The position numbers and the translations under genes were made by a program. From positions 1 through 53,866 of the IMG/VR virus record IMGVR_UViG_3300038450_000073: a stretch of DNA of 53,866 nt. One strand, written 5' to 3'. Of the stretch, positions 6,018-50,097 are shown piece after piece (the first letter of the stretch is position 1; each line of letters starts with the position of its first letter). The notes under the pieces are model-generated. The model had not been told where the DNA came from, made no database searches, and was given only the letters and a program-made list of their open reading frames with translations. Source of the DNA: a virus.

Positions 6018-9000
6018 ATGGCCGGGGGCATCCTTCCGCCCATATTGGGCGAATTGCAATTGTCGGCCAGCCAGTTCATCGACAAGCTGGCCGAGGTCCG
6101 CGACGTCCTCGGCGAGACGGCGGGCTCGACCGATGACCTCGACCTCGCCCAGGCCCGCGCCGAGGCGACCAGCTCCCAGCTCGCCGACGCCCAGGAACGT
6201 CTTGCCGCGACCTCCGCTGACTTGATCGCGACCCAGGACGCGATCAACAAGGGGCAGATCACGGGCGAGGAAGCGTCCACCGCGCAGTCGGGTGCCCTCG
6301 ACCGGCAGGCCGTCGCCGAGAAGGAGATGCGCGACGCGACCCTCGCCAACGCCGACGCGCAAGGGCGTCTCGCCGAGGCCGAGGTGGCGTCCGCCGACAC
6401 GGGGGTCCTCCAGGACGAGCGGCTGATCAAGGCGGGCAAGCTCGTCACGCTCGCCTTCCTCGGCATCGGGGCCGCGGTCGGCGTCATGTCCGTCAAGATG
6501 GCGATGGACTTCCAGACCAGTCAGGCCAAGGTCCAGGCTGCCTTGGGCCAGTCCACCAAGCAGTCGAACGACCTCGCCAACGCGCTCCTCGGCACCGCGG
6601 GGTCGACCGAGCAGTCGGCCAACGCGATGGAGGCGGCGCTGGCCCCGGTCGCCGCCCAGTTCAAGTCGCTGCAATCCGGCGCCTACACGACCGCCGAGGC
6701 CCTGGAGGAGATGAAGGCGGCCACGTCGCTCGCTGACGCCGGGCTGGGGTCACTCTCGGACACGACCGGCGCCCTCGCGGGGGTGATGCAGGCGTTCCAG
6801 CTGCACGCCAAGGACGCCGCCTCGACCGCCGACGTCCTCTACTCGGCCTCGCAGATGACCGGCCAGGGCGTCGACTCGCTGACCTCCGGCCTGGAGCGGA
6901 CACGGACCAAGCTCGGCGCGCTCTCGCCCTCCCTCGGGCAGCTCTCCGGCCTCTTGGTGGACATGACCGAGCACGGCGAGACCGGGCGAGCCGCGATGTC
7001 GATGCTCACCACGACCATGACCGCGCTCTTGAAGCCCGCGGCCGACGCCGCCAAGGCGCAGATCGCGTTGCGGGTGGCGAGCGACACCCTGCCACCGTCG
7101 CTCCAGGGACTGGCCGCGCAGTACGTCGCCGGGACGGTCACCGCGAAGGAACTCACGACGGCGACCCAAGGGATGTCGTCGAGCCAAGCGGTGGCCTGGA
7201 AGGCGTTCACCTCCGCGGCCGACGGGGCCAAGACCGCCCAGCTGGCCTCGGCCAAGCTTGGCCTGACGGTGACGGACGCCAAGGGCCAGTTCGTCGGCTG
7301 GGCTTCGGTCATCTCCCAGCTGGCGGAGAAGACCAAGGGCATGACCACCGCCCAGGCGACGGCCGAACTCACCGCGCTGGGCTTCGGCTCCGCGTCCGCC
7401 AAGGTCCTCGCCCTGGTCCGTGCCGGCCCGGAGGCGTTCGACAAGGCCACCGCGGCGGTGACCAAGCACGGCACGGCGGAGAACGCGGCCAACCTCCAGA
7501 TGAAGACCCTGCACGGCCAGCTGCACATGCTGGAGGCCGCGGTCGACGACTACGGGGTCCGGCTCGGGCGGGTGCTCATCCCCAAGATTGAGACGGTCAT
7601 CCACGTCACCGCCTCGGTCGTCGAGTGGTTCAACAAGAACCGCATCGCGGCCTACACGCTCGCCGCGGTGGTGGTGGGCGTGCTCGGGGTCGCGGTGACC
7701 GCGTTCGCCGTGAACGCCCTCGGCAAGCTCGTCGCCAACGCGCAATCGGCGTACCAGGCGGTCCTCAAGCTGTTCGGACTGAAGGGCGGCCCTGACGAGA
7801 CTTCGGCCCTGAACACCGACGCCTCCCAGGCGTCCGAGACGCTGCAGCAGGGAATCGCCAAGGCCGGTGAGCAACTGATCGCCGACGCGAAGACCGCGGC
7901 CGCGTCCCTCACTGCGGGTGGCTCGACAGCCGCCGAGGACCTGGGAACTGGCGGTGCCACGGCTGCTGAAGACCTGGGCGCCGGGGGTGCGACTGCCGCG
8001 GAAGACCTGGGCGCTGGCGGTGCCACGGCTGCTGAAGACCTGGGCGCGGGTGGTGCTGCTGCTGCCGAGGATGTCGGTGCGGGCGGCGCGGCTGCTGCGG
8101 AGGATTTGGGCGCTGGCGGTGCTGCTGCTGCTGAAGACGTAGGCGCTGGGGGCGCCTCGGCCGCGGAGGATTTGGGCGCTGGGGGCGCCTCGGCCGCGGA
8201 AGACCTGGGCGCGGGTGGCGAGGTGGCCGGAGAGGATGTCGGCGCGGGTGGCGCGGCTGCCGCGGAAGACCTGGGGGCTGGTGGTGCCGGAGCGGCAGAG
8301 GACTTGGCCGCGGGTGGCGAGACGGCGTCGGAGGACCTGGTGGCAGGTGGCGCAGGCGCCGCCGAAGACGTCGCGGCTGGCGGTGCCACGGCAGGCGAGG
8401 ACCTGGGTGCAGGCGGAGAGGACGCCGCCGAAGCGGCGGGAGCCGCGGGCGCGGGGGCCGGTCTCGCGCTGGGCGGCGGCGCCGCGGCTGGTGCGGGAGC
8501 CGCGGGCGCGGGAGAGGCTGGAGGCTTTAGCGCGGCCAGCCTGATTCTGCCCGTCATCACCGCGCAGATCGCCTCACTGGGGACGAAGCTCATACCGGGG
8601 GCCGCGGCGGGCGAGGCCGCGATGCCGTCGTGGATGAAGGACGTCTCTTCGATCCCGTTCGTCGGCGCGATACCCAAGATCGGGGCCGACCTCGCGGGCG
8701 GTTTCCTCGACGCAATCGGCGCGCTGCCCAAGACGGTGCCGAGTGAGAAACAGATCGCAGCGAACGCGGCACTCGGCAGTTACGACACCGGGCGGTCGGA
8801 CATCGAGCTCACGAAGGCCCAGAAGGATCAGGTCGTCGGGCTGATGAAGATGGGCGAGTCGCTGAAGGAGGCCCAGCAGAAGGTCCTCGGGATCAAGACC
8901 TCGACGGACAAAACGACCATCGCCGTGAACTCGCTCGGGTCGAAACTCGCCAAGACGCCCGACATCGCGGCGGTGACTGCTGCGACCCTGAAGCTCGCCA

Positions 9001-12252: not shown

Positions 12253-13953
12253 ATGCGCGTGCCCGGAATCGCCCCCGTTCTTGACCACGCAGAGGTTCAC
12301 GCCGCGTATTTGCCGCGTCCCGGCATCGACCGGCTCCAGATGGCGGGCAACGTCGCCGACCAAATCCGCCGCCACAAGCACGAGAACCCGGCCGACCACA
12401 TCCACGACAAGCTGGTGGACTCCCTCGTCGCCCACGTCCGCGCCGTCGTCGCCGACCCGGCGCAGCAGCCCGAGGACCCCGCCTGGACGCCCCCCCAGCG
12501 CATCGTCTGGCGCTCGGCGGCCGAACACCGCGGCCAGGTGCCACTGTCGCCTGAGCGCAAGCTGGAGGTCATCGCCGACCGCTCGGTGCACCCCACCGTC
12601 AAGGCGATGGCCTACGTGAACGCGGGGCGCTGGGTCGTCTCCTGTTTTGCTGGCGAGGAAAAGTTCCTCACCCCCGATGGCCCGAAGACGTTTGCCGAGA
12701 CGGCTGGAACGATCCAGACTGTGCTCACGACAGCTCAGAATGGTGGCGTATGGGTTCCAGCGCCAATCACTGAGCGCGGGGTGCAACAGCTATACGCGCT
12801 CAACCTCGTCAGGAGCAAGCGACACAGGACCATCTACACGACAGCGGAGCATCGTTGGTTGGTCCGTTCCAGGGCCGATCCGTTGCGACGTGACATGCAC
12901 TCGGTGCTCACCAAAGACCTTGTCGCAGGACAACGCCTGGCTTCATTGATGCCGTGTTCGTTATCCCGTGGGAAAGGACTACGCCCATCGCAGTTCGGTA
13001 TTGCTCGGGGGTTCACGTTCGGCGATGGGGCGCGGTACGCGCTGGGTAGCCAGGTCACCCTTTATGCGGAGAAAGACGCCGCGTTGCTCAAATATTTCTC
13101 AGAGTCTCATACTTACGAAATCTCAGGGCGAGACGCCCTACGCGTCGTTGATCTTCCTGCGTACTTTAAGGTGCTCCCGTCGCTCGATGAGTCGCCGTCC
13201 TATCTCTATGGCTGGTTGGCTGGCTACTTCGCGGCTGACGGTCATGTGACCAAGAAAGGCCAAGCGGTTCTATATTCTGCTCGACTTGAACACCTGCAAT
13301 TCGTCGAACGTCTGGCGTTGCGTCTCGGACTCGGTACATACCCGATCATCTCGCGGACACGCAAAGGCATCAAAGGTGTGTGGTCTGAGATTCATAGCAT
13401 TGGTTTCGTTCGTTCTCGGCTAACCCCAGAGTTCTTTTTGATTGCCGAACATCGCCGCCGCTATGACCACTGGGCATCGGTTCAGAATGCTGAGGTGATT
13501 GACTACGAGGTTGAAAGCGTCGAGGCGACTGACCGATATGAGCCGGTGTATTGCGCGACGGTCCCTGGAACAGAGAGCTTTGTTCTCGACGGTTATATCC
13601 ATACCGGGAACTGTCCCTTCCCTGGCTGCAACTCCGCGCAGATGGCGAGCTTCACCGACCGTCGGTTCTTCTGCTGCGACTGCGCCAACGCCGCGGTCGG
13701 AGGTCAGTGGGTCGAGGTGGTCTGGCCGGCGAATCACACGGAGGTGGAGAACTGGGTCGCCAGTCGGCCGTTCGACGTGCGGCACTGGTTCCCCGGCGAG
13801 ACGGCCGAGGACATTCGGTGGCAGGACGATGAGGCGATGGGGCGGGGGTTCGCGCCAGGGCCGACCGGAGGCAAGCCTGGTGAGTCGGTCGCGACCCACG
13901 TCGCTCGTGAGCGGAAAGCGAACCCGCGCTCGGGGCGAAAGGCGAAGGTGTAG
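12253..13953 (+). CDS. Tail-module zinc protein interrupted by an intein
   Basis: 566-residue precursor; removal of a 323-residue intein (residues 131-453) would give a 243-residue protein. The N-extein is helical and basic. The C-extein starts at Cys454 with CPFPGC, later FFCCDC, forming a four-cysteine zinc site whose first ligand is the +1 Cys, so splicing is needed to build it. The mature C-terminus is Lys/Arg-rich. It lies between the tail hub and a jelly-roll protein and probably works in tail assembly or as a minor tail protein; no family recognised. Start set by TACACT 7 nt upstream. Confidence 0.75.
   Translation: MRVPGIAPVLDHAEVHAAYLPRPGIDRLQMAGNVADQIRRHKHENPADHIHDKLVDSLVAHVRAVVADPAQQPEDPAWTPPQRIVWRSAAEHRGQVPLSPERKLEVIADRSVHPTVKAMAYVNAGRWVVSCFAGEEKFLTPDGPKTFAETAGTIQTVLTTAQNGGVWVPAPITERGVQQLYALNLVRSKRHRTIYTTAEHRWLVRSRADPLRRDMHSVLTKDLVAGQRLASLMPCSLSRGKGLRPSQFGIARGFTFGDGARYALGSQVTLYAEKDAALLKYFSESHTYEISGRDALRVVDLPAYFKVLPSLDESPSYLYGWLAGYFAADGHVTKKGQAVLYSARLEHLQFVERLALRLGLGTYPIISRTRKGIKGVWSEIHSIGFVRSRLTPEFFLIAEHRRRYDHWASVQNAEVIDYEVESVEATDRYEPVYCATVPGTESFVLDGYIHTGNCPFPGCNSAQMASFTDRRFFCCDCANAAVGGQWVEVVWPANHTEVENWVASRPFDVRHWFPGETAEDIRWQDDEAMGRGFAPGPTGGKPGESVATHVARERKANPRSGRKAKV
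12643..13611 (+). other. Intein with LAGLIDADG-type homing endonuclease
   Basis: Residues 131-453 of the host protein. Cys131 opens block A ('CFAGEEKFLTPDGPKTFAE'). Block B is TTAEHRW with His200. A LAGLIDADG-like dodecapeptide lies at 318-331 ('LYGWLAGYFAADGH', Asp329). Block F is 'YCATVPGTESFVLDG', and the C-terminal junction is HTGN/C with Asn453 and +1 Cys454. All residues for standard class 1 splicing are present. A second LAGLIDADG motif is not clear, so endonuclease activity is uncertain. The DNA is visibly poorer in GC than its flanks, consistent with horizontal arrival. Confidence 0.9.
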
Positions 13954-14488: not shown

Positions 14489-15343
14489 TCAGGTCGTCGG
14501 TTCGTAGGTGACGGAGAACGAGGCACCCTGCGGCTGGCTCGGCATCGCCTCCACCGTGCCGCCGGATGTCTGCATCTCGATCGCGTCGGCGTAGGTGAGC
14601 GCGCTCGTCGGGACGACTTGGAGGTTGGTGAACGTCACGATCCCGAAGTCGGCGAGTGGGGTGAGGTCCGAGCTGCCCTGCACGGTAGGGTCCTCGGTGA
14701 CCCACTCGGCGGAGGAGCCGGCGTAGACCGCCGAATCGCTCGCGGTGGCGCTCTGGCCCGAGGTCACGTCCGTGACCGTCGCCGTCCACGTCCCCGAGGA
14801 CGACTGCTGGACCTCGGCCGAGATCACGTCGCCCGCGTTTACCGCGAGCTGGTCCTGGGCGACGTAGCCGAGCGCCGCGTCAGTCCACCAAGCGTCATTA
14901 GCCTGCACGCCATTCACGCAGGCCGACTCGCTCCCCGTCTGGAAGAGGTTCGCCGAGCCGTCCCAACCGTTGACGCCAACCCAGTCCACAGTGACCCCGC
15001 CCGGGACGACGGCGCAGTTGAGCGTCGGGACGGTCCACTCACCGCTCACCGCCTGGTACTCACCCGTTAGGACGTAACCGGACCAGTTTGTCGAGGCAAG
15101 GCCGGGGGTCGCGACGGGTGCCGACAGGGACGAGACGACCGGGTGCCAGATGCAATCGACGTAGCCGCGCAGGATGCGCCGACCGCCGACCGTGACCCAG
15201 TGGTGCCGGACTAGCCCGCGGTAGCCGACGTGGCACGACAGAGCGTGACCGCGCGGGTAGCTCGCGTGGGTCACCGCGCCCGCGGGGGTCGCGAGGCCCA
15301 ATGTCGCGAGGGCGAGGGCTGCGGCTACGGTGAGCTTTCGCAT
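14489..15343 (-). CDS. Secreted glutamic peptidase (G1/eqolisin-like)
   Basis: 284 residues, minus strand, RBS GAGAGG before ATG. Residues 1-23 are a clear signal peptide ending AGA. Residues about 84-245 match the G1 family: 'STNWSGYV', 'VSGEWTVPT', 'WVGVNGW', then 'FQTGSES' with the expected catalytic Gln (Gln135), 'DAWWTD', 'NAGDVISAEV' and 'SAEWVTEDP' with the expected catalytic Glu (Glu213). The family is known as acid-active endopeptidases, mainly fungal with bacterial members. As an exported phage protein it might act on host surface or environmental proteins. It lies downstream of a small membrane protein on the same strand, probably one operon. Confidence 0.8.
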   Translation of the reverse strand: MRKLTVAAALALATLGLATPAGAVTHASYPRGHALSCHVGYRGLVRHHWVTVGGRRILRGYVDCIWHPVVSSLSAPVATPGLASTNWSGYVLTGEYQAVSGEWTVPTLNCAVVPGGVTVDWVGVNGWDGSANLFQTGSESACVNGVQANDAWWTDAALGYVAQDQLAVNAGDVISAEVQQSSSGTWTATVTDVTSGQSATASDSAVYAGSSAEWVTEDPTVQGSSDLTPLADFGIVTFTNLQVVPTSALTYADAIEMQTSGGTVEAMPSQPQGASFSVTYEPTT

Positions 15344-15364
15344 GGTCGGTTCCTCTCTGAATTG

Positions 15365-15378
15365 CCTAGACGTCTAGG
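15365..15378. promoter_or_regulatory. Palindrome site 3 (operator-like)
   Basis: Perfect CCTAGACGTCTAGG within ATTGCCTAGACGTCTAGGG. It supplies the stop of the minus-strand gene ending at 15366 and lies 22 nt upstream of the peptidase start at 15343, so it could control the peptidase. Confidence 0.75.
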
Positions 15379-15584
15379 GTTTTCGAGGTGGGCGCGGTGT
15401 CATGGTCGATCGCCTCGTCGAAGTGCCGCCGGACGACGAGGTAGCACGGGAACACGACGATCCACAGGCATATGGCGCCGATAACCCACCCGGTGACGCT
15501 CCCCCAGGAGCGGCCCTTCTGTCGGGCGTCGGCAATCATCCACACGATGGTCCCGAGGACCACCAACACGACCAGAGCTCCCAT
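15366..15584 (-). CDS. Small two-helix membrane protein
   Basis: 72 residues, minus strand, with strong RBS GGGAGG before ATG. Residues 1-18 ('MGALVVLVVLGTIVWMIA') and about 31-50 ('VIGAICLWIVVFPCYLVV') are membrane segments separated by a short basic, Gly-rich loop; the acidic C-terminus ends inside palindrome site 3. It resembles phospholipase D-nuclease N-terminal-type (PLDc_N) or small phage membrane proteins. It leads a minus-strand operon with the glutamic peptidase, under a promoter shared with early genes. Holin-like activity or superinfection exclusion is possible. Confidence 0.6.
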   Translation of the reverse strand: MGALVVLVVLGTIVWMIADARQKGRSWGSVTGWVIGAICLWIVVFPCYLVVRRHFDEAIDHDTAPTSKTLDV

Positions 15585-15612
15585 CGCTTCCTCCCTCCCA
15601 GGACACCCCTAA

Positions 15613-15641
15613 CGGTAGCCGACTCCCGTGGCAAAGTAAAG
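15613..15641 (-). promoter_or_regulatory. Early-type promoter, minus-strand copy
   Basis: Read on the minus strand: TTTACT (-35), 17-nt spacer, TACCGT (-10), with core GGGAGTCGGCTACCGT at 15613-15628. A short conserved leader (TCCTGGG) follows before the RBS of the gene starting at 15584. The same core occurs at 18536 and 26434. Confidence 0.7.
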
Positions 15642-16389: not shown

Positions 16390-16848
16390 GTGGCCGACGT
16401 CGTGACCATCGTCGAGACGGTCTGCACGACCATCGTGGCAGGGGGTGTCGTCGCCCCGTTCGCCTGGAAGCGGTTCGGCAAGGTCGCCGCTGAGAGGCAC
16501 ACCGACGACCTGTTTCTCCACGGCTCGCCCGCGGTCCCCGGAATCCGCCCCGTCCTGGAGACGGCAGGGGTTCGCTTGGAGAACGTCGAGCGGATGGTTG
16601 GCGAGCACGGCGAGATCCTGACCGACATCCAGAAGTCCCTTAAGATGAGCAACGGGCACACCTTGGGCCAAACGGTCGAGATCGCCGCGAAGGAAGCCCG
16701 TACCGCTGCGGCCGCCGCGAAGGACGCTGCCGTTGCTGCAGCTTCCGCTGCTGAACTTGCTGCAGTTTCCGCTGCTGAACGTTGCGAAGCACACCGAACC
16801 GCCCGGCCCCGTCGGGCACAGACAGGAGGCACCAATGACAACCCCTAA
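16390..16848 (+). CDS. Membrane-anchored coiled-coil protein (DUF2746-like)
   Basis: 152 residues from GTG 16390. One N-terminal membrane segment ('VETVCTTIVAGGVVAPFAW', residues about 8-27) is followed by a soluble part with 'RLENVERMVGEHGEIL' and 'NGHTLGQTVE', then an Ala-rich helix. This arrangement resembles the DUF2746 proteins next to lysis genes in mycobacteriophages. It overlaps the next gene, a holin-like protein, by 14 bases. A role in lysis timing is inference. Confidence 0.5.
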   Translation: MADVVTIVETVCTTIVAGGVVAPFAWKRFGKVAAERHTDDLFLHGSPAVPGIRPVLETAGVRLENVERMVGEHGEILTDIQKSLKMSNGHTLGQTVEIAAKEARTAAAAAKDAAVAAASAAELAAVSAAERCEAHRTARPRRAQTGGTNDNP

Positions 16849-17410
16849 CCTGCTACCGCGCTGGACGAACCCGGCCTCGGTGACCGCGTTCCTCCTCGCC
16901 ATCGCGGGCTACGCGACCGCGTTCATCGTCGCCATCCACCCAGGGTTCGCGCCCCCGACCATCGTCGCCGCGCTGATCCCCTCGGCGGGCGTGGTTGTCG
17001 CGGCCCTGGCGACCATCTTCGTCATTGTCATCCACCGCAAGACCGTCTCGGCCGTCTCGGCCTCGGGGGGCACGGTCGTGCAGCTGCCGACGTGGACGGA
17101 CGCCGGGAGCGTGCTCGCGTACTTGACCAGCATCGTCTCGGCCGTGTTCGCGGTCGTGACCGGCCTGCACCCGGGGTTCACCGAGCCGTCCGTCGTCGTG
17201 GCCATCCTGCCCTCGGTCGCCGTCCTGGTCGCGGTGGTCGCGCAGCTGGTCAACCTGGCAACGCACCACGCGGCGGTTGCCGCGGTGAGCGGGGGGCAGT
17301 TCCTCGAAGCCTCCGCGGTTGCCGTGCAGCCCGCGCCGACCGTCACCGTCACGATTGACGGCCGGAAGCTGGCCGACGCGATTGCGACGCACCTAAAGAC
17401 GCGCGCATGA
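16835..17410 (+). CDS. Holin-like protein with internally duplicated membrane unit
   Basis: 191 residues; ATG 16835 is preceded by AGGAGGC. Four membrane segments occur as two homologous pairs: residues about 12-76 ('HPGFAPPTIVAALIPSAGV') and about 85-150 ('HPGFTEPSVVVAILPSVAV'). Each unit has a helix, the HPGF..P loop, a second helix and a short soluble 'VSAVSASGG' or 'VAAVSGG' end. A soluble C-terminus closes with 'IDGRKLADAIATHLKT'. Location before a papain-like enzyme suggests a holin. Internal duplication explains the length, double that of a two-helix holin. Confidence 0.6.
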   Translation: MTTPNLLPRWTNPASVTAFLLAIAGYATAFIVAIHPGFAPPTIVAALIPSAGVVVAALATIFVIVIHRKTVSAVSASGGTVVQLPTWTDAGSVLAYLTSIVSAVFAVVTGLHPGFTEPSVVVAILPSVAVLVAVVAQLVNLATHHAAVAAVSGGQFLEASAVAVQPAPTVTVTIDGRKLADAIATHLKTRA

Positions 17411-18171
17411 CCGCGGGCCTGCGCGGCCTGCTCCCCGAGACGCGCTTCGCGCCGTCGTTCGAGGAGCGCCTGACCAAGCCCCTGCCCGCGGCACCCGCGA
17501 AAGCGTTCGACTACGCGGCCAAGGTCACGGGCGGGTTCCCGATGGCGGACAACGACTCCATCGGCGACTGCACCATCGCGGGCTGGGTGCACCTCTGCCA
17601 GCTCGCCTACGCGCTCGTCGGCGTGCCGTACACGTACCCGGGGGACGACGCGGTCGCCGCGGCCTACTGGGAGCTCGTCGGGCACGGCCCCGAGTACGAG
17701 GGCGACCCTGGACCGGGCTTGCAGATGACGCAGGTGCTCTCCGCGGCGTCGGCGGGCGCGGGGCTGCTCGGCGTGAAGGCGGTCGCCTGGGGCTCGGTGA
17801 ACATCCACTCCAAGGCGGCGCTGCGGAACGCGCTCTACAACTTCGGCGCGCTCTACCTAGCGGGTGACATCCCGCAGGACGCAGAGACGCAGTTCCCCGG
17901 CTGGTGGCACCTCGTCAGCGGCGCGCACCCGGGCGTCGGCGGGCATTGCTTCGTCGCGAGCGGGGACCTCGACCTCGGCTCGTTCGCTGGCCTCGACAAC
18001 ATCACCTGGGGTGGCGAGAACGGGTTCACCTGGCCGTGGTGGACACGCTATTCGGTGAGCGCGTTCGTGGTCATCCCCGAGTGCTACGTCACCGCCGGGC
18101 ACGGGCCGCTCGACGCGGTCGACGTGGCCGCGTTGGAGGCGGACGTGCACGGGTTCGCGGCGAGCGCCTAG
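17407..18171 (+). CDS. Papain-like cysteine peptidase, candidate endolysin
   Basis: 254 residues, ATGA overlap with the holin-like gene. The catalytic Cys is in 'NDSIGDCTIAGWVHLCQ' (Cys55), the His in 'GGHCFVAS' (His180) and the Asn in 'TWGGENGFTW' (Asn205), the C-H-N order of papain-like folds. No signal peptide is visible, which suits export through a holin. Related proteins are found in actinophages and prophages without a settled function; peptide cross-link hydrolysis during lysis is inferred from position. It ends the late operon: two hairpins follow. Confidence 0.6.
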   Translation: MTAGLRGLLPETRFAPSFEERLTKPLPAAPAKAFDYAAKVTGGFPMADNDSIGDCTIAGWVHLCQLAYALVGVPYTYPGDDAVAAAYWELVGHGPEYEGDPGPGLQMTQVLSAASAGAGLLGVKAVAWGSVNIHSKAALRNALYNFGALYLAGDIPQDAETQFPGWWHLVSGAHPGVGGHCFVASGDLDLGSFAGLDNITWGGENGFTWPWWTRYSVSAFVVIPECYVTAGHGPLDAVDVAALEADVHGFAASA

Positions 18172-34626: not shown

Positions 34627-34863
34627 TTGCCCGGATTCTCGACTCGCTTTCAGAGTGGCTTCGTGCAGCTGGTCGGCCTCGGCGTCGCCGATGCCGCGAC
34701 CTGGCGCTTCGCCGGGCCGAACGCCGGGCTGCTCGTCGCCGCGGCCGTGCTCGTGCTCATCGGCTTCGCGATGGACGGGGGTGAGATAGACGCGGTCGGG
34801 GCCGTGGGGAAGCTGCTCGCGCGGCTGGGCGGGCTGTTGAGCCGCCACGAGGCGTCTGAGTGA
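34627..34863 (+). CDS. Small membrane protein before portal gene
   Basis: 78 residues from TTG 34627, RBS GAAGGAGGC. Residues about 31-50 ('AGLLVAAAVLVLIGFAMDG') form one membrane helix; the remainder is amphipathic. Overlaps the portal fusion gene by four bases. It might anchor head assembly at the membrane or be unrelated; no family recognised. Confidence 0.5.
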   Translation: MPGFSTRFQSGFVQLVGLGVADAATWRFAGPNAGLLVAAAVLVLIGFAMDGGEIDAVGAVGKLLARLGGLLSRHEASE

Positions 34864-37800
34864 GCCTCGTCCGCGACGCCGTCAGGGGCACCCGCTACCG
34901 CCCATCGGCCGGTGAGAAGGTCGTCCAGGCCAAAGCCGTGAAGGACGCGGCGCGCACCGCGGCCTCGGCCATCGTGGCGACGCACACGGCCGACGACATC
35001 GCCTCAGGCCGGGTCAACCTCGCCGCCGTCGCCGCCGCGGCCTCGGGCGCCTACGCGCCGCGCACGACGCTCACACCCGCGGACATCGAACTGGCGCTCA
35101 TCGAGCAGGGCATCTCCTTCCAGCCCCCGCTCGGCCCGGGGACGCCCATCCGGCCGTTCCACGGCTACAACGAGCCCCCGCGGCTGGCTGATTACATCCC
35201 CGGCTCGAACATCGCCGTCGAGACGAGGTCCGGGCGCATCCCGTTCCGCACGCTGACGCAGATCGTCGAGGGCTACGACATGGCCCAAATCTGCATCAGC
35301 CACATCATCGCCGACCTGTGCTCGATGCCGCTCTTGTTCCGTGCTATCGACGGCTACGAGGGCGACGTGTCGAAGGAAATCGCCCAGGCCAAGCAGTTCT
35401 GGAAGAAGCCGGACGGGAAGCACCCCTGGCGCGTCTTCCTAACCAAGCTGCTCTACCAGCAGCTCGCCTATGACTGCGGGATGCTCTATAAGGTCCGCGA
35501 CAAGGGCGGGAAGCTGAAGGCGGTCCAGGTGCCGGACGGCCGGATGTGGGCACCGATCATCGACTACTGGGGCGAGCGCCCCGACGCACCCGCGCCGGCC
35601 TTCGCCCAGTTCGTCGAGGGCCTGCCGTGGGGCTGGACCGACGAGACGCTGGTCATCTACGAGCCGTACACGTCGCGCCCCGACGACCCTCGCTATGGCC
35701 TGGCGCCCATCGAGTGCATCCTGCTTAACGCCAATACCGACGTGCGGTTCCAGTGGCACTTCCTCAACATGTTCACGGGCGGCCAGGTGCCGGAGGGATT
35801 CGCCGAGGCACCGCCCGAGCAGTCCGACCCCGACCAGCTCAGCCTGTGGCAGGAGCTATGGGATGACTGGATGTACGGCGACCAGTCGAAGCGCTGGGGC
35901 GTTCGCTGGCTACCATTTGGGGCCAAGTTCACGAGCTACAAGCCGACGACGTTCGATGCCAAGTTCCCCGAGCACCTGATGCGGAAGACGGTGGCAGCGT
36001 TCCACCGGACGCCGCAGGACCTCGGTATCCTTGATGACGTCAACCGCGCGACCTCGGAGACGCAGGTAGACGAGCAGTTCCGCATCTCGACACGGCCCCG
36101 GACCGGGTTCATCGAGGACGTCTTCCTCGACCCGATCACCCAGGACGAGCTGGGCCTGCCGATCCACTGCTATTTCGACCTCGGCCAGGAAAAAGAGGAC
36201 CGGGTCATGGTCATGCAGGAGCAGGTCGGCTACATCAAGGCGGGCGTCATCTCCCCCGACGACGTGCGCGAGCGCATCTTGGGCCTGTCGGTCGACCCGG
36301 AGAACCGCATCCCCCGCTTCTACGACGCGGGCGGGCGGCTGGGCGCGACGCCGCTCGGTTACATCGAGGCCGTCTCCAAGTGGTTCAGCGACTGGGATCC
36401 GACGACGGGCGCGCCCATCCTCGCCCAGGTGGAGCCGCGCGAGTTCATCGTCCCCGGCGAGCTCGCCGCCGCGCCCGCCGCGACTGGGGGTGCCACGCCT
36501 GCGCTCGGTCTGCCACCTGGTCAACCGCCCGGACAATCTGGTGGACAAAATCCGCCTCGAAATCCCCTGAAACCGCCTCCGACCAGCCCCGCGGCCACGC
36601 CTGCGCCGGGCCAGGAACCGGCCCACGACGAGACCAACGTCGCGCCCCCGGCAGGCTTCACCGCGCCGCCCAAGACCGCGCCCGCGGCCAAGTCGGTCGT
36701 CGACGTCGGCGGGCTGGTCGTGAAGGCGATGGACACTGGCCGCGTGCTCATGATTCAGCGCGCCTTCACGCCCGACGACCCCGCGGCCGGCACGTTCGAG
36801 TTCCCGGGTGGTCACATGGAGGGCGACGAGACGCCGCTGCAGGCCGCGGTCCGGGAGTGGCAGGAGGAGGTCGGCGAGCCGCTGCCCGACGGCTACTTCG
36901 ACGGCTCGTGGACCAGCCCGAACGGCATCTACCGCGGGTTCGTCTACGTCATCGCCTCGGAAGCCATGCTGCACCTCAACCCGGACCCGGAGAACCGCGG
37001 CGTGCTCAACCCGGACGACCCGGACCAGGACAACATCGAGGTGGTCTGCTGGCTGGAGCCCGCGGACATCCCGGCGATGCCGAACCTGCGCGAGGAGTGC
37101 CACACCTGCGACTGGGTGGTCATCTCCCAGGCCGGGACGGTTGCCAAGTGCGAGACCGAGGGCATCACCGCGGAGACGGGCCTCACGGGCGTCGACCTCA
37201 CCGGTTTCGACGACGAGGACGATGACGACGCGGAGGAGCAGCTGCAGAAGGTGCTCGGCCAGTGGCAGTCGAACGCGCTCCTGGCGGTGCGCCGCGGGCG
37301 TAAGCCGCGCTACTTCCACGACGAGGTGATCCCGGTCGAGGTCGGCCACCGCATCTACAAGGCGCTCGCCAAGGCGAAGACCAAGGAGCAGGTGCGCGCG
37401 GTCTTCAAGGCGGCCAAAGCCGACCCAAAAGGTTCACGGTGGCCGGGCTCGGGCCTCCGCCACCGAATCCCCCAGGCGTACGCGCCGAAGATCGCCGAGG
37501 CGCTGCGGGCGGGGACGAAGGGGATCGACGCCGCGGTGGCCTCTATGGTGACGAGGGCTACCAAGGCTTCACCCCCTACACCCCCGACGAGCGGGCCCAG
37601 CGAGGCGCGGGCCGCGGTCGAGGCGAACGTCTCGATTGACGCCGACCGCACGGGCGCGGTCTTCGCCCAGATGTACGCCGACGCCTACGGGGGCGGGGTC
37701 AAGGCCGCACGCGCCGCGCTGGGCGTGGACGCGCGCGCCCCGTCGTGGCTCTCCGGCGACATGCTGACGACCGTCTCGCGTGACTGGGAGGCGTGGACGC

Positions 37801-38252
37801 CGGGCTGGTCCGACGCGGCGCTGCAGGACGCCGGGGGCGGGCTGGCGACGCTCCTCGACGCGCGGGGCATCACCATCCAGGGCATCACCTCATCGGCGAT
37901 GGACCGCATCGGCACCGCGCTCGCCGACGGCATCGCCGCGGGCGACGCGCCCGCCACCATCGCCCAGGCCATGTCGGACGTCATCGCCGACCCGCAGCGG
38001 GCGTTCACCATCGCGGATACTGAGTGCGCCCGGTCATTTACAGCGGCGAGCATCGACACCTACACCGAGAATGGCGTGGCCGAGGTGGACCTGCTCACGT
38101 TCGACCCCTGCGAGGAGTGCGAGGAGATCGAGGACTCGAACCCCTACCCGATTGACGACGCGCCTGACGTGCCGATCCATCCCAACTGCCGCTGCGCGCT
38201 TGCCCCGGCGAACATCCCCGGCGCGCCATCGACCGAGGAGGGCGGCGAATGA
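34860..38252 (+). CDS. Portal protein fused to a Nudix hydrolase and a MuF-type head protein
   Basis: 1130 residues, GTGA overlap. Residues about 80-560 form a portal protein ('FRTLTQIVEGYDMAQICISH', 'YGLAPIECILLNANTD', 'KTVAAFHRTPQDLGIL'). A Pro/Gln-rich linker (about 555-620) leads to a Nudix domain with an intact box G651-x5-E657-x7-R665-E666-x2-E669-E670-x-G672. Another linker follows, then a C-terminal MuF/SPP1-gp7-like domain with 'TIADTECARSFTAASIDTY', 'DPCEECEEIED' and 'HPNCRC'. No stop or frameshift separates them. Portal rings thus may carry 12 Nudix units, unless the chain is cleaved. Confidence 0.8.
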   Translation: MSLVRDAVRGTRYRPSAGEKVVQAKAVKDAARTAASAIVATHTADDIASGRVNLAAVAAAASGAYAPRTTLTPADIELALIEQGISFQPPLGPGTPIRPFHGYNEPPRLADYIPGSNIAVETRSGRIPFRTLTQIVEGYDMAQICISHIIADLCSMPLLFRAIDGYEGDVSKEIAQAKQFWKKPDGKHPWRVFLTKLLYQQLAYDCGMLYKVRDKGGKLKAVQVPDGRMWAPIIDYWGERPDAPAPAFAQFVEGLPWGWTDETLVIYEPYTSRPDDPRYGLAPIECILLNANTDVRFQWHFLNMFTGGQVPEGFAEAPPEQSDPDQLSLWQELWDDWMYGDQSKRWGVRWLPFGAKFTSYKPTTFDAKFPEHLMRKTVAAFHRTPQDLGILDDVNRATSETQVDEQFRISTRPRTGFIEDVFLDPITQDELGLPIHCYFDLGQEKEDRVMVMQEQVGYIKAGVISPDDVRERILGLSVDPENRIPRFYDAGGRLGATPLGYIEAVSKWFSDWDPTTGAPILAQVEPREFIVPGELAAAPAATGGATPALGLPPGQPPGQSGGQNPPRNPLKPPPTSPAATPAPGQEPAHDETNVAPPAGFTAPPKTAPAAKSVVDVGGLVVKAMDTGRVLMIQRAFTPDDPAAGTFEFPGGHMEGDETPLQAAVREWQEEVGEPLPDGYFDGSWTSPNGIYRGFVYVIASEAMLHLNPDPENRGVLNPDDPDQDNIEVVCWLEPADIPAMPNLREECHTCDWVVISQAGTVAKCETEGITAETGLTGVDLTGFDDEDDDDAEEQLQKVLGQWQSNALLAVRRGRKPRYFHDEVIPVEVGHRIYKALAKAKTKEQVRAVFKAAKADPKGSRWPGSGLRHRIPQAYAPKIAEALRAGTKGIDAAVASMVTRATKASPPTPPTSGPSEARAAVEANVSIDADRTGAVFAQMYADAYGGGVKAARAALGVDARAPSWLSGDMLTTVSRDWEAWTPGWSDAALQDAGGGLATLLDARGITIQGITSSAMDRIGTALADGIAAGDAPATIAQAMSDVIADPQRAFTIADTECARSFTAASIDTYTENGVAEVDLLTFDPCEECEEIEDSNPYPIDDAPDVPIHPNCRCALAPANIPGAPSTEEGGE

Positions 38253-46102: not shown

Positions 46103-46285
46103 ATGGATGATAAGCAGGGCGCCCGTGAGATACGAACCGTCGATGTCGTTTTTGACGGTCCACCTGGGCCAGTCGCGGGAAGATTCGTAGAGGTCGAGGA
46201 CGAGACCGCGGCAAGCGTGAAGGTCGGCGAGTGGGTTGAGCGCGACGACGGCTATTGGGCGCTCCGTCTCCGGGTGGCTGAGTGA
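46103..46285 (+). CDS. Small beta-rich protein
   Basis: 60 residues from ATG 46103. 'DVVFDGPPGPVAGRFVEVED' and 'GEWVERDDGYWALRLRV' suggest a small beta fold. Overlaps the next GTG by four bases. No family recognised; similar small proteins occur in actinophage genomes. Confidence 0.5.
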   Translation: MDDKQGAREIRTVDVVFDGPPGPVAGRFVEVEDETAASVKVGEWVERDDGYWALRLRVAE

Positions 46286-46413
46286 GGGGCTACCTGGCCT
46301 ACCTCCTGCGACGCTTCCGCACCGCGTGGAGCGGAGTACCCGTGTGCCGTACCCGCCGTTGCGGGAGGCAACGCGATTACTGGGCGGGCGACTTCTGCAA
46401 GCTGCACCGATGA
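46282..46413 (+). CDS. Very small Cys-containing basic protein
   Basis: 43 residues from GTG 46282, overlapping both neighbours by four bases. 'VCRTRRCGRQRDYWAGDFC' followed by 'KLHR' has three Cys and one His. Coupled translation supports a real gene. Function unknown. Confidence 0.45.
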   Translation: MRGYLAYLLRRFRTAWSGVPVCRTRRCGRQRDYWAGDFCKLHR

Positions 46414-47114
46414 CCGTCACCGTCATCATGCCCGTGTACGAAGCGGCCGACTGCCTGCCCGCGGCCATCGGCTCGGTCATGGCCCAGACCTACGAGGACT
46501 GGGAGCTGGTCGCCGTCGATGACAACTCAGCCGACCCGCGGGTCATGCAAATACTCGACGCCGCGGGACGTGACCCGCGCGTGTTCGTCGTCCATCTCGG
46601 CACGACCGAGGACGAGCGCCGGCAGTCGGTCCGGTACGCGACGATCTTCAACCTCTGCGCGGAAATCGCCGAGGGCCATCTGACCTTCCTCTGCGGCGAC
46701 GACTTCTACTACCCGGATCGGTTAGAACGGATGGTGCGGAAGCTCGACGAGGGCAACGACGTGGTCTACGGCGCGCAGCGGCTGGTCCCGATGCCGGGGG
46801 AGTACGGCGAGCGCGTGCTGCACGGCACGGAGGCGATCCGCCACTGCCAAGGAGTCTTGACCGACGCCTACCACAAGGTTGACCTCAACTCGGTCATGGT
46901 GACGCACACGGCGTTTGACATGGCTGGCGGGTTTCCAGACCGCCCGCCGACGCCGCAGATGTGGCGCGAAGCCGACGCCTTGTTCTGGCAGCGCCTAGCG
47001 TTCGCCGGTTACGTCTTCGTCCCGGTCGATGATCCGGAGCGGCCGACCGACTGCAAGCGCTACAGAGACGACGGGGCAGATGCCCGCGTGATTCGAGGGG
47101 AGACGCCGTGGTGA
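46410..47114 (+). CDS. Family 2-type glycosyltransferase
   Basis: 234 residues, ATGA overlap. 'MTVTVIMPVYEAADCLPAAI', 'TYEDWELVAVDDNSADPRV' and 'GHLTFLCGDDFYYPDRLERM' are the three hallmark regions of GT-A family 2 enzymes, with the DxD-like metal site in 'CGDDFYYP'. A later 'MAGGFPDRPPTPQMWREADA' fits the acceptor region. It should transfer a sugar from a nucleotide donor to a protein, lipid or DNA acceptor; the acceptor cannot be told from sequence. Cytoplasmic: no membrane segment. Confidence 0.75.
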   Translation: MTVTVIMPVYEAADCLPAAIGSVMAQTYEDWELVAVDDNSADPRVMQILDAAGRDPRVFVVHLGTTEDERRQSVRYATIFNLCAEIAEGHLTFLCGDDFYYPDRLERMVRKLDEGNDVVYGAQRLVPMPGEYGERVLHGTEAIRHCQGVLTDAYHKVDLNSVMVTHTAFDMAGGFPDRPPTPQMWREADALFWQRLAFAGYVFVPVDDPERPTDCKRYRDDGADARVIRGETPW

Positions 47115-47791
47115 TCTCGTTGCTGTGCCCCAGCCGTGGCCGACCGGAGAACCTCCGGCGGTTGTCCGAGAGCGCTTTCAGCCTGGCAGCATCCCCGCCC
47201 GACATCGAAGTGCTCGCCTATGTCGATCTTGACGACCCGGCCCTCCCGCAGTATGCGGCGCTCGACTGTGCCGAGATTCACACGGGGGAGCGGATCATGT
47301 TCACGGACTACTGGAACAAGCTGGCGGAGGTCGCCCACGGCAACATCATGGGCATGATGGGCGACGACGTCGTCTTTCGCACTCCCGGCTGGGATCGCAT
47401 GGTCGAGGACGAGTTCGCGAAGTGGCCCGACCGGATCGTGTTCGTGAACGGTAGGGACGGTGCCCACGGGCCGGCGCTCGGCACGCACGGGTTCCTGCAC
47501 CGTCGCTGGGTGGATGCTGTCGGCCGGTTCTGCCCGCCGTACTTCAGCCATGACTACCCGGACCTGTGGCTCACCGAGGTCGCGGACGCGCTCGGCCGGC
47601 GCGTGTTCCTGCCCGAACTGTTCACTGAACACCTTCACCCCAACCTTGGGAAAGCACCGGACGACGACACCTACCGCGAGGGGGTGGCGCGCGGCGTACG
47701 CGACAACTGCCCGCAGCTCTACATCGACACGCTCCCCGAACGTGAACAGGAGATCGCGACCCTGCGGGCCGTGATCGCGTCGCATGGTTGA
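47108..47791 (+). CDS. Glycosyltransferase-like protein 2
   Basis: 227 residues, GTG start inside the previous gene's end. 'VISLLCPSRGRPENLRRLSE', 'EVLAYVDLDDPALPQ' and 'GNIMGMMGDDVVFRTPGWD' give a GT-A-like donor site with GDD. The C-terminal half ('PELFTEHLHPNLGKAPDD') is shared with the paralogue at 48446. A 53-base stretch (47356-47408) is identical in both genes although the rest has diverged. Probably part of the same glycan pathway. Confidence 0.65.
   Translation: MVISLLCPSRGRPENLRRLSESAFSLAASPPDIEVLAYVDLDDPALPQYAALDCAEIHTGERIMFTDYWNKLAEVAHGNIMGMMGDDVVFRTPGWDRMVEDEFAKWPDRIVFVNGRDGAHGPALGTHGFLHRRWVDAVGRFCPPYFSHDYPDLWLTEVADALGRRVFLPELFTEHLHPNLGKAPDDDTYREGVARGVRDNCPQLYIDTLPEREQEIATLRAVIASHG
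47356..47408 (+). repeat. 53-bp exact repeat in glycosyltransferase paralogues, copy 1
   Basis: Identical to 48688-48740 over all 53 bases, covering the GDDVVFRTPGWDRMVE region. Flanking sequence differs, which points to gene conversion or strong constraint. Confidence 0.85.
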
Positions 47792-48449
47792 GTACCGACC
47801 GTCCGAGAGTTGCTGCGGGGTGAGCCCCCTGTTCTTGCTGCCCTCCGAGGACATGCGCGCGGTCTTCGCCGGCAGTCCCGGTGGGCTGCCCGAAGCACCG
47901 TTGATCGACTGGGCGTGGCGCGAGTTCGGTGGCGAAGGCTTGTTCGTGGACGTGGGCGCGCATGTCGGCCAGTGGACGCTCCCGTTCGCCGCCGCCGGGG
48001 TGCCCGTCGTGGCATTCGAGCCCAACCCGCCCATCCGCGCACTTCTCAGCGCAGCGATTCGACAAAACGGTCTCGCCGTGTCTCTTTGGCCTTTCGCGCT
48101 CGGCGCGGCAGCCGGGAGCGGCCATCTGACCGCGCCGGAGATCGGCGGCGGCATGGCGTCCATCGTGTGCGAGTTTCCTGGTGGCCCCGTCAGTGAGACC
48201 GTCGAGGTCCGTTCCCTCGACCACTTCAGCCTCGCGCCGCGCCTGCTCAAACTCGACGTGGAGGGCGCGGAGGTTGACGTTCTGCGCGGTGCTTATGAGA
48301 CCATTCGCCAAAACAGGCCGGTCGTGATCTTCGAGTGCTGGGAGGATGAACGCGGCCAACGAACCGGCGAGCTGTTCGCGACCCTTGCCGAGTACGGCTA
48401 CCGCACCGAGCGCAACTCGTGGCCCGAGACCTGGGTGGCCTACCCGTGA
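47784..48449 (+). CDS. FkbM-family methyltransferase
   Basis: 221 residues, eight-base overlap. 'LFVDVGAHVGQWTLPFAAAG' is the SAM-binding motif I, 'VVAFEPNPPIRALLSAAI' motif II, and 'LLKLDVEGAEVDVLRGAYE' the FkbM hallmark (LKIDVEGxE). FkbM enzymes O-methylate sugars or polyketides; in a glycosyltransferase cluster, capping of a sugar hydroxyl is likely. Full length for the family. Confidence 0.8.
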   Translation: MVEYRPSESCCGVSPLFLLPSEDMRAVFAGSPGGLPEAPLIDWAWREFGGEGLFVDVGAHVGQWTLPFAAAGVPVVAFEPNPPIRALLSAAIRQNGLAVSLWPFALGAAAGSGHLTAPEIGGGMASIVCEFPGGPVSETVEVRSLDHFSLAPRLLKLDVEGAEVDVLRGAYETIRQNRPVVIFECWEDERGQRTGELFATLAEYGYRTERNSWPETWVAYP

Positions 48450-49126
48450 TCTCGCTGCTTGTCCCGACACGCGGGAGACCTCACAACATTGCGCGGCTGC
48501 TCGACAGCCTCGACAGCACCACGACAGGGAGGATCGAGGTCGTGTGGTGCGTCGACGACGACGACGCCCCGAGCGTCCGTGCGCTGGCCGATCAGACCTA
48601 CGGCCCGGTGGTCGTCGGGCCGCGCGAGTGCCCGAACCAGCTCTGGAACACGGCGTGGGTCGGCGCCAAGGGCGACATCCTGGCGCCGATGGGCGACGAC
48701 GTCGTCTTTCGCACTCCCGGCTGGGATCGCATGGTCGAGGCGGCGTTCGGGTCGGTCCCCGACCGGATGGTCTTGGTGTACGGCCGCGACGGATTTCGCA
48801 ACCAGGTTCATGCGTCCCATCCCTTCCTGAGCCGTGAGTGGTGCGAAGTGCTCGGCTACCTCTACCCGCACCCGGAGGTGTTCACGCAGGACATGGTCGA
48901 CGTTTGGGTGTTCGAGCTCGCCCAAGCGGTCAACCGGACCATCTACCTGCCGGAGCTGTTCACGCAGCACATGCACCCGGACGACCCCAGCCTCGGCGTC
49001 GAGTTCGACCAGACCTATCGGGACAACGCCATGAGGCGTGAGCGCGACCGGACGCACGAGCGTTACGCGGACTATGCCGCGGAGCGTGCCGCGGATGTCG
49101 AGAAGCTGAGGAGGGCACTGCGATGA
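48446..49126 (+). CDS. Glycosyltransferase-like protein 3 (paralogue of 2)
   Basis: 226 residues from GTG 48446 (GTGA overlap). 'VISLLVPTRGRPHNIARLL' and 'IEVVWCVDDDDAPSVR', then 'GDILAPMGDDVVFRTPGWD' and 'PELFTQHMHPDDPSLGVEF', colinear with the protein at 47108. A charged helix ends the chain ('RYADYAAERAADVEKLRRAL'). It may act on a different acceptor or add a second residue. Confidence 0.65.
   Translation: MISLLVPTRGRPHNIARLLDSLDSTTTGRIEVVWCVDDDDAPSVRALADQTYGPVVVGPRECPNQLWNTAWVGAKGDILAPMGDDVVFRTPGWDRMVEAAFGSVPDRMVLVYGRDGFRNQVHASHPFLSREWCEVLGYLYPHPEVFTQDMVDVWVFELAQAVNRTIYLPELFTQHMHPDDPSLGVEFDQTYRDNAMRRERDRTHERYADYAAERAADVEKLRRALR
48688..48740 (+). repeat. 53-bp exact repeat, copy 2
   Basis: Same 53 bases as 47356-47408, 1332 bp downstream in the same orientation and reading frame. 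Recombination between copies would delete the FkbM gene. Confidence 0.85.
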
Positions 49127-50097
49127 CGGACGGGCGGGTTCTCGTGGCAGGGGCCGGTGGGTTTATCGCCGGGCATCTCGTCAAGCGGCTGGAAGCCGAG
49201 GGGCGCGAGGTCTTCGGCGTCGATATCAAGCCCCTCGGCGAGTGGTGGCAACCTGGGAAGGCTAACTGGGAAGCGGACCTCTCACTCGCTGATGAGTGTG
49301 ACGACGCCGTCGAAGGCTGCTCGACGGTCGTGAACCTCGCCTGCGACATGGGGGGCATGGGGTTCATCGCGCTGAACAAGGCCGCCTGCATGCTGAACAT
49401 CCTGATCAACACGCATCTGCTGATGGCGGCCAAGCGGGAAGGCGTCGGGCGGTACTTCTTTGCCAGCTCGGCCTGCGTTTACCGGCAGGACCGCCAGGAC
49501 GGCTCGGTGCTGAACTACGCGCTACGCGAGAAGGACGCCTACCCGGCTGACCCCGAGGACGGCTACGGCTGGGAGAAGCTGACCTCGGAGCGGATGTGCC
49601 GGCACTTCCGCGAGGACTACGGGCTGGAGACCCGCGTCGCCCGCTTCCACACCGTCTACGGCCCGCACGAGACGTGGCAGGGCGGCCGCGAGAAGGTCCC
49701 GGCGGCGTTCTGCCGCAAGGTCGCCGTCGCCAAGCTGACCGGAGGGCGTGAGGTCGAGGTGTGGGGCGACGGGACGCAACGGCGGAGTTTCCTCTACGTC
49801 GATGACCTCGTAGATGGGGTCCTGCGCCTGATCGACTCAGATCGTGCCGAGCCGACGAACATCGGGGCGACCGGCTCCGTGACGATTGAGGAGCTGCTGG
49901 CGCTGGTCGAGTCAATCGCCGGGGTGCCGACATTGAAGCGCGTCTACGACCCGACGAAGCCGCTCGGGGTCCGCGAGCGCGACTGCGACGGCACGGCGAT
50001 GACCGAGGCGACCGGCTGGCAGCCGACGATCTCGCTCGAAGCCGGGATGGAGCGGACCTACGCCTGGGTCGAGGACCAGGTGCGGGCGGCGATCTGA
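49123..50097 (+). CDS. GDP-mannose 3,5-epimerase-like enzyme
   Basis: 324 residues, ATGA overlap. An extended SDR enzyme: 'VLVAGAGGFIAGHLVKRLE' binds NAD, the active-site Tyr148/Lys152 lie in 'YGWEK', and 'FASSACVY' supplies the Ser/Cys region. The signature 'NLACDMGGMGFIALNKAAC' and 'FHTVYGPHETWQGGREKVPA', 'AFCRKVA', 'EVWGDGTQRRSFLYVDDLVD' are specific to GDP-mannose 3,5-epimerase, which makes GDP-L-galactose and GDP-L-gulose. It would supply an unusual L-hexose donor for the glycosyltransferases around it. Confidence 0.8.
   Translation: MTDGRVLVAGAGGFIAGHLVKRLEAEGREVFGVDIKPLGEWWQPGKANWEADLSLADECDDAVEGCSTVVNLACDMGGMGFIALNKAACMLNILINTHLLMAAKREGVGRYFFASSACVYRQDRQDGSVLNYALREKDAYPADPEDGYGWEKLTSERMCRHFREDYGLETRVARFHTVYGPHETWQGGREKVPAAFCRKVAVAKLTGGREVEVWGDGTQRRSFLYVDDLVDGVLRLIDSDRAEPTNIGATGSVTIEELLALVESIAGVPTLKRVYDPTKPLGVRERDCDGTAMTEATGWQPTISLEAGMERTYAWVEDQVRAAI

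Follow-up and report, generated by a model that had tools for sequence, protein, structure and literature searches.

The G1 (eqolisin-type) glutamic peptidases of fungi and of Alicyclobacillus work at a pH of ~3–4, and the disulphide conserved in the fungal enzymes is reported to be absent from the bacterial and archaeal members (PMC3009609). When the first bacterial member was characterised, the natural function of bacterial G1 enzymes was stated to be unknown (PMC3009609). In the literature searched, 'eqolisin' and 'phage' do not occur together, 'glutamic peptidase' and 'bacteriophage' meet only in work that is unrelated to judge by titles and abstracts, and no secreted G1 peptidase of a phage is described. 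The locus studied here is predicted to encode such a protein. Like Alicyclobacillus pepG1 (PMC3009609), its 284-aa product has a complete domain, the Gln/Glu pair, a putative signal peptide and an intervening region. It differs from the bacterial pepG1 branch in being phage-encoded and in having extra cysteines (37/64 and 110/142). The closest folds to it are the fungal G1 structures.

The window, that is, the whole stretch of DNA analysed, is a virus record taken entire from IMG/VR; it has 53,866 bases and a G+C content of 68%, and comes from a soil phage, probably one of acid-bog Acidimicrobia-type actinobacteria. The record that carries the G1 gene also carries the hallmarks of a tailed phage, which are a tape measure, a terminase, a portal-NUDIX-MuF fusion, a prohead protease and a neck protein. 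Its two ends are bridged by three sister records across a gap of ~1.9 kb. The genome thus maps as a circle of ~56 kb, of which the window contains nearly all. The segment absent from the window measures 1956 bases in sister record G009 and codes for a repetitive fibre-like protein. A second IMG/VR record (metagenome 3300038451) is 100% identical to the window over 20 kb spanning both edges of the leftward cassette. The cassette is held by these two records only, with identical sequences, and the sister records do not cover its region. Scans with two flanking proteins for cassette-free alleles returned only the same second record and a distant contig (L051).

The G1 peptidase gene and its predicted product

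The features of the locus are as follows.

15612–15628, minus strand: promoter-like block CGGGAGTCGGCTACCGT (17-mer) with candidate −10 TACCGT
15366–15584, minus strand: ATG open reading frame of 72 aa, whose product has two hydrophobic segments that probably span the membrane; stop codon in the palindrome
15364–15379, no strand assigned: palindrome copy GCCTAGACGTCTAGGC (CCTAGACGTCTAGG at 15365–15378) at the junction of the 284-aa and 72-aa genes
14489–15343, minus strand: G1 (eqolisin-type) glutamic peptidase gene, 284 aa, ATG start, assigned by PF01828, PDB matches and model
15275–15343, minus strand: putative signal peptide, residues 1–23, MRKLTVAAALALATLGLATPAGA, read by eye, with predicted cleavage after AGA
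15095–15274, minus strand: prosegment-like region, residues 24–83 (60 aa), with Cys37 and Cys64, also present in a G1 encoded on the chromosome of a candidate host (BLASTP)
Residues 84–281 of the 284-aa protein: G1 catalytic domain with the predicted catalytic pair Gln135/Glu213

The first-pass annotation had given both open reading frames, their coordinates and the residue numbers exactly. Purine-rich ribosome-binding sites precede the two starts, GAGAGGAACCGACC-ATG for the 284-aa frame and GGGAGGGAGGAAGCG-ATG for the 72-aa frame. The 284-aa protein matches Pfam PF01828 (Peptidase_A4, MEROPS G1) with an E value of 6.4e-28 over positions 1–206 of the 206-position profile, with a score of 98.1 bits where the cut-off is 22.3; in NCBIfam, no family corresponds to the protein. 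Its sequence relatives in the PDB are only two, aspergillopepsin II (E 7e-11) and scytalidopepsin B (E 0.002), and both have their catalytic residues at the positions of Gln135 and Glu213 in the alignments. Across 13 aligned G1 domains Gln135 is invariant and Glu213 nearly so; across 52, the catalytic Gln is invariant and the Glu is conserved in at least 90%. The N-terminus, MRKLTVAAALALATLGLATPAGA followed by VT, reads by eye as a Sec signal peptide, in support of the secretion signal claimed earlier.

A first modelling attempt with the full-length protein gave a poor result (pLDDT 61). The model of the catalytic domain built with 52 related sequences has a pLDDT of 95.4 and a pTM of 0.91, and this predicted core displays the two-sheet β-sandwich of the G1 fold. 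In a Foldseek comparison with the PDB, the top five entries are all G1, with scytalidoglutamic peptidase (2ifw) aligning at a TM score of 0.80 and a root mean square deviation of 3.3 over 212 columns. Below the G1 entries come Bacillus proteins and glutamic peptidases of the neprosin type, which are more distant. To judge by superposition and alignment, the side chains of Gln135 and Glu213 may be juxtaposed. Profile search (PF01828, E 6e-28) and structure comparison (TM 0.80 to 2ifw) agree in placing the protein inside G1. The earlier claim of a G1 peptidase with both catalytic residues is thus borne out by the profile, the PDB sequences, the fold and the conservation of the pair.

The leftward unit and the dispersed palindrome

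The block CGGGAGTCGGCTACCGT occurs three times in the window without mismatch, at 15628(−), 18535(+) and 26433(+). Each lies ~25–30 bp 5' of a Shine-Dalgarno sequence and ATG, with a similar leader, and the block is kept in the sister phage G005 at the site corresponding to 26433. Because the site is not scored by a generic sigma-70 scan, we term the block promoter-like. Its repetition supports expression of the G1 gene from a putative promoter of the phage's own. The three copies, and the conservation of one of them in G005, likewise support the suggestion that an early-type promoter directs transcription opposite to the late genes. The 72-aa gene has its stop codon inside the palindrome, 22 bases 5' of the start of the peptidase gene, and this spacing suggests a single leftward transcript.

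The first-pass annotation had further described a palindrome between the two genes and taken the genes as a linked cassette. The palindrome is real. As a feature of the cassette it does not hold up, as it recurs at ~11 sites genome-wide and in the sister phages. When up to three mismatches are allowed, GCCTAGACGTCTAGGC is matched 12 times in the window, where chance would give 0.27. The ~11 dispersed 16-bp sites (977, 4641, 15364, 18492, 22598, 28255, 29627, 32182, 34053, 40283 and 51703) are located at gene ends, often provide the stop codon (Leu-Asp-Val-stop) and have AT-rich flanks in this G+C-rich genome. Eight IMG/VR contigs were found by the palindrome; all eight align to the window, and the palindrome is common to all sister phages. 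Dispersed 17-bp dyad repeats similar in kind occur in Cluster O mycobacteriophages, where their function is unknown (PMC4351075). Here, the hairpins have energies of −7 to −11 kcal/mol (z −1.3 to −3.1), and a terminator scan scored no terminator-like site at the palindromes. The palindrome may be an operator, a terminator or another kind of element. Homology between sister phages breaks near palindromes in 6 of 55 cases against 1.3 expected (P ~0.001). The excess relative to other gene ends is not significant (5/6 versus 13/25 sites, P 0.18); hence we do not claim palindromes as recombination boundaries or as guides of gene exchange.

As to the linked pair, a homologue of the 72-aa protein, 56% identical, is encoded in the sister contig G008 (L026:1–207), where it abuts a palindrome just 5' of the terminase, with no G1 gene on the contig. 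The peptidase and membrane genes are therefore not an obligate pair, and the claimed linkage is not supported. In G005 and in the window, the same palindrome slot has other small genes 5' of it, so the slot varies.

G1 genes in phages and the likely host

The first-pass annotation held that such a peptidase is rarely, if ever, described from a phage. Rarity is confirmed: tblastn of the 284-aa protein against 50,697 deposited phage records gave no match, the prosegment region gave only chance-level matches to deposited phages, PHROGs has no family for the protein at E 0.001, and BFVD holds no viral protein of clear G1 fold. The stronger 'never' is contradicted by IMG/VR, in which a profile-guided scan returned ten loci, including the second copy of this phage. 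This count is a lower bound because only one conserved motif was used.

A second group among these loci consists of five near-identical 274-aa genes (L054–L058) and a relative of them (L053). Here the G1 gene lies in the head module, 3' of the portal gene and, in L058, 5' of the major head protein gene, and it shares the strand of its neighbours. The terminase is also present on contigs L053, L055 and L058. The second-group proteins likewise have a signal-peptide-like N-terminus and a G1 domain, are 27–28% identical to the G1 of this phage, and occupy a different branch of the G1 tree. The L058 protein has no match among deposited phages either. G1 genes are therefore found in no fewer than two phage groups that are unrelated to each other. 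HNH endonuclease genes lie close to the signal-peptide-like G1 genes L058:7848–8666 and L053:7836–8675. Three further loci (L052, L059 and L060) were excluded as phage cases as phrog_2 found no terminase on them, and L060 also lacks a PF01828 match.

In the same tree, the G1 of this phage falls within an Acidimicrobiaceae clade (SH-aLRT 98) that includes the metagenome-assembled genomes bog_528, bog_800 and palsa_658. The G1 proteins of these three genomes are 48–53% identical to it over the catalytic domain and have longer N-terminal parts, with repeat or fibronectin-like modules, that are absent from the phage protein. In the family to which bog_528 belongs (Acidimicrobiaceae), 27 of 35 genomes have a G1 gene, compared with 10 of 198 in the class and 14 of 396 in the phylum.

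A terminase search of the same 35 genomes returned one match (65–66% identity), in G577. The matching contig (C40, L105/L106; 27,170 bases) is a sister phage, syntenic with the window at 25–50 kb, with the same palindromes, and its terminase and portal are 65% and 78% identical to those of the window; it is all phage, with no host flank. Another contig of G577 encodes a G1 protein among neighbouring genes that read as ordinary chromosomal ones. This protein is 40–43% identical to the phage G1 and shares its N-terminal region. By BLASTP the two align from residue 29 to the end, with 40% identity over 273 residues, and Cys37 and Cys64 of the phage protein are conserved.

Most simply, Acidimicrobiaceae would be both the hosts of this phage group and the source of its G1 gene, because G577 holds both a sister-phage contig and a similar chromosomal G1, the phage protein sits in the clade of this family, and the family is rich in G1. 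This host assignment is probable; it rests on gene phylogeny and on binning of the all-phage contig, which is the sole physical link. The sister phage in G577 provides a host lead for the whole uncultured group and makes this a plausible host family. A bacterial origin, indicated by the tree and the G577 protein, together with the promoter-like block, fits the description of a moron, as the first-pass annotation had suggested. Phage auxiliary metabolic genes and morons are likewise bacterial-type genes with their own promoter, set against the late operon.

Proposed action and alternatives

Our main reading, that the phage makes a host-derived, exported and catalytically competent G1 peptidase, has a probability of about 0.72, a figure that leaves the choice of substrate aside. 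In this scheme the G1 gene, a moron from the likely host family, would have been inserted pointing the opposite way from its neighbours, with the last tail gene on one side and the presumed lysis region on the other. A phage-type promoter 5' of the 72-aa membrane gene, to which the repeated block points, would drive both genes leftward, and the N-terminus would send the peptidase through Sec. Once the protein is out in the acidic habitat, removal of the prosegment would yield the active Gln135/Glu213 enzyme, by analogy with the family. Protein would then be digested outside the infected cell, on top of the G1 activity common in the host family. The presumed acid activity and the pH and pepstatin properties of the phage enzyme are taken from pepG1 and the fungal enzymes, and the acidity of the habitat from the genome names (bog, palsa); we likewise infer the timing of G1 synthesis, early or late.

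That the phage keeps a G1 gene under its own promoter, in the G1-richest of the sampled host lineages, suggests that it benefits from G1 outside the cell. A counterpoint is that most members of the likely host family already have G1 enzymes. Among classes of benefit we favour the processing of proteins beyond the membrane. Extracellular digestion of protein for nutrients during infection has a somewhat less than even chance, and processing of host surface proteins, which would aid release or block superinfection, is a possibility that we hold with reserve. A wider proposal is that acid-soil phages repeatedly took up secreted G1 peptidases (in at least two unrelated groups) and that the present enzyme remodels the host exterior, processing surface proteins for release or superinfection exclusion. 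As a whole this is speculative and more doubtful; if true, viral infection would contribute extracellular acid proteolysis to acid soils. The phage gene in any case offers a handle on the natural function of bacterial G1 peptidases and adds a type of secreted peptidase to the known phage-borne genes.

Pfam and PHROGs searches of 60 window proteins recognised no integrase, excisionase or repressor, and the ~2 kb beyond the window ends, which holds the fibre-like gene, added no integrase or repressor. Action in lytic infection is therefore likelier than lysogenic conversion, though lysogeny genes of an unrecognised kind may exist. A lytic setting would suit an exported peptidase that cleaves host proteins in the surface layer or anchored to the wall and thereby opens the cell or frees attached virions. 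The gene adjoins the presumed lysis region, identified by eye as 16733–17410 (several hydrophobic segments) and 17407–18171. Such an aid to lysis is nevertheless rather unlikely, as the G1 gene opposes the late genes and its promoter type, common to non-late units, suggests early synthesis, and the presumed lysis genes have no Pfam family match. The 254-aa product of 17407–18171 contains GDCTIAG, GGHCF and DNITWG motifs, which suggest a papain-type cysteine peptidase, and matches only the unnamed PHROG 19005.

Lysogenic conversion, in which the gene would be expressed from a prophage and feed or alter the lysogen, has in its favour the typical anatomy of a moron, with its own promoter, a strand opposite to the late genes and a bacterial origin. 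We consider it improbable, given the missing integrase, excisionase and repressor matches noted above and the G577 sister contig, which has no host flank. The expression during lysogeny raised in the first-pass annotation accordingly finds no support.

It is more improbable still that the protein has lost peptidase activity and serves as a receptor or adhesin with a lectin-like β-sandwich. Foldseek does put the G1 fold near legume lectins and phage tail proteins; against that, the catalytic residues and the conserved motifs around them are intact, and the protein has a signal peptide of its own and no tail domain. An assembly chimera or bacterial contamination of the record, which a bacterial-type gene with no homologue among deposited phages might bring to mind, is already largely refuted by the second IMG/VR record across both edges and by the phage's own palindrome and promoter block within the locus, and retains almost no probability. 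The G1 protein was also rejected as a prohead (capsid maturation) protease, since its gene is not part of the head module and it starts with a signal peptide; the match to the XkdF-type protease (PF14550 and phrog_3017) belongs to a different window protein.

Several other regions of the window are of note in themselves. The 1130-aa frame at 34860–38252 combines the portal with a NUDIX domain and a head protein of MuF-like type, as is also the case in Arthrobacter phage Sonali. The phage protein encoded at 12253–13953 is split by an intein with a LAGLIDADG endonuclease domain, with the junction apparently at a Cys ~130 residues in. The tape measure gene has imperfect internal repeats at 7912–8523, the copies being 66–76% alike. 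A sugar module at 46236–50097 encodes two glycosyltransferases of the same family, a GtrB-like protein and a nucleotide-sugar epimerase, and contains an internal DNA duplication (47311–47460 versus 48643–48793, ~79% alike).
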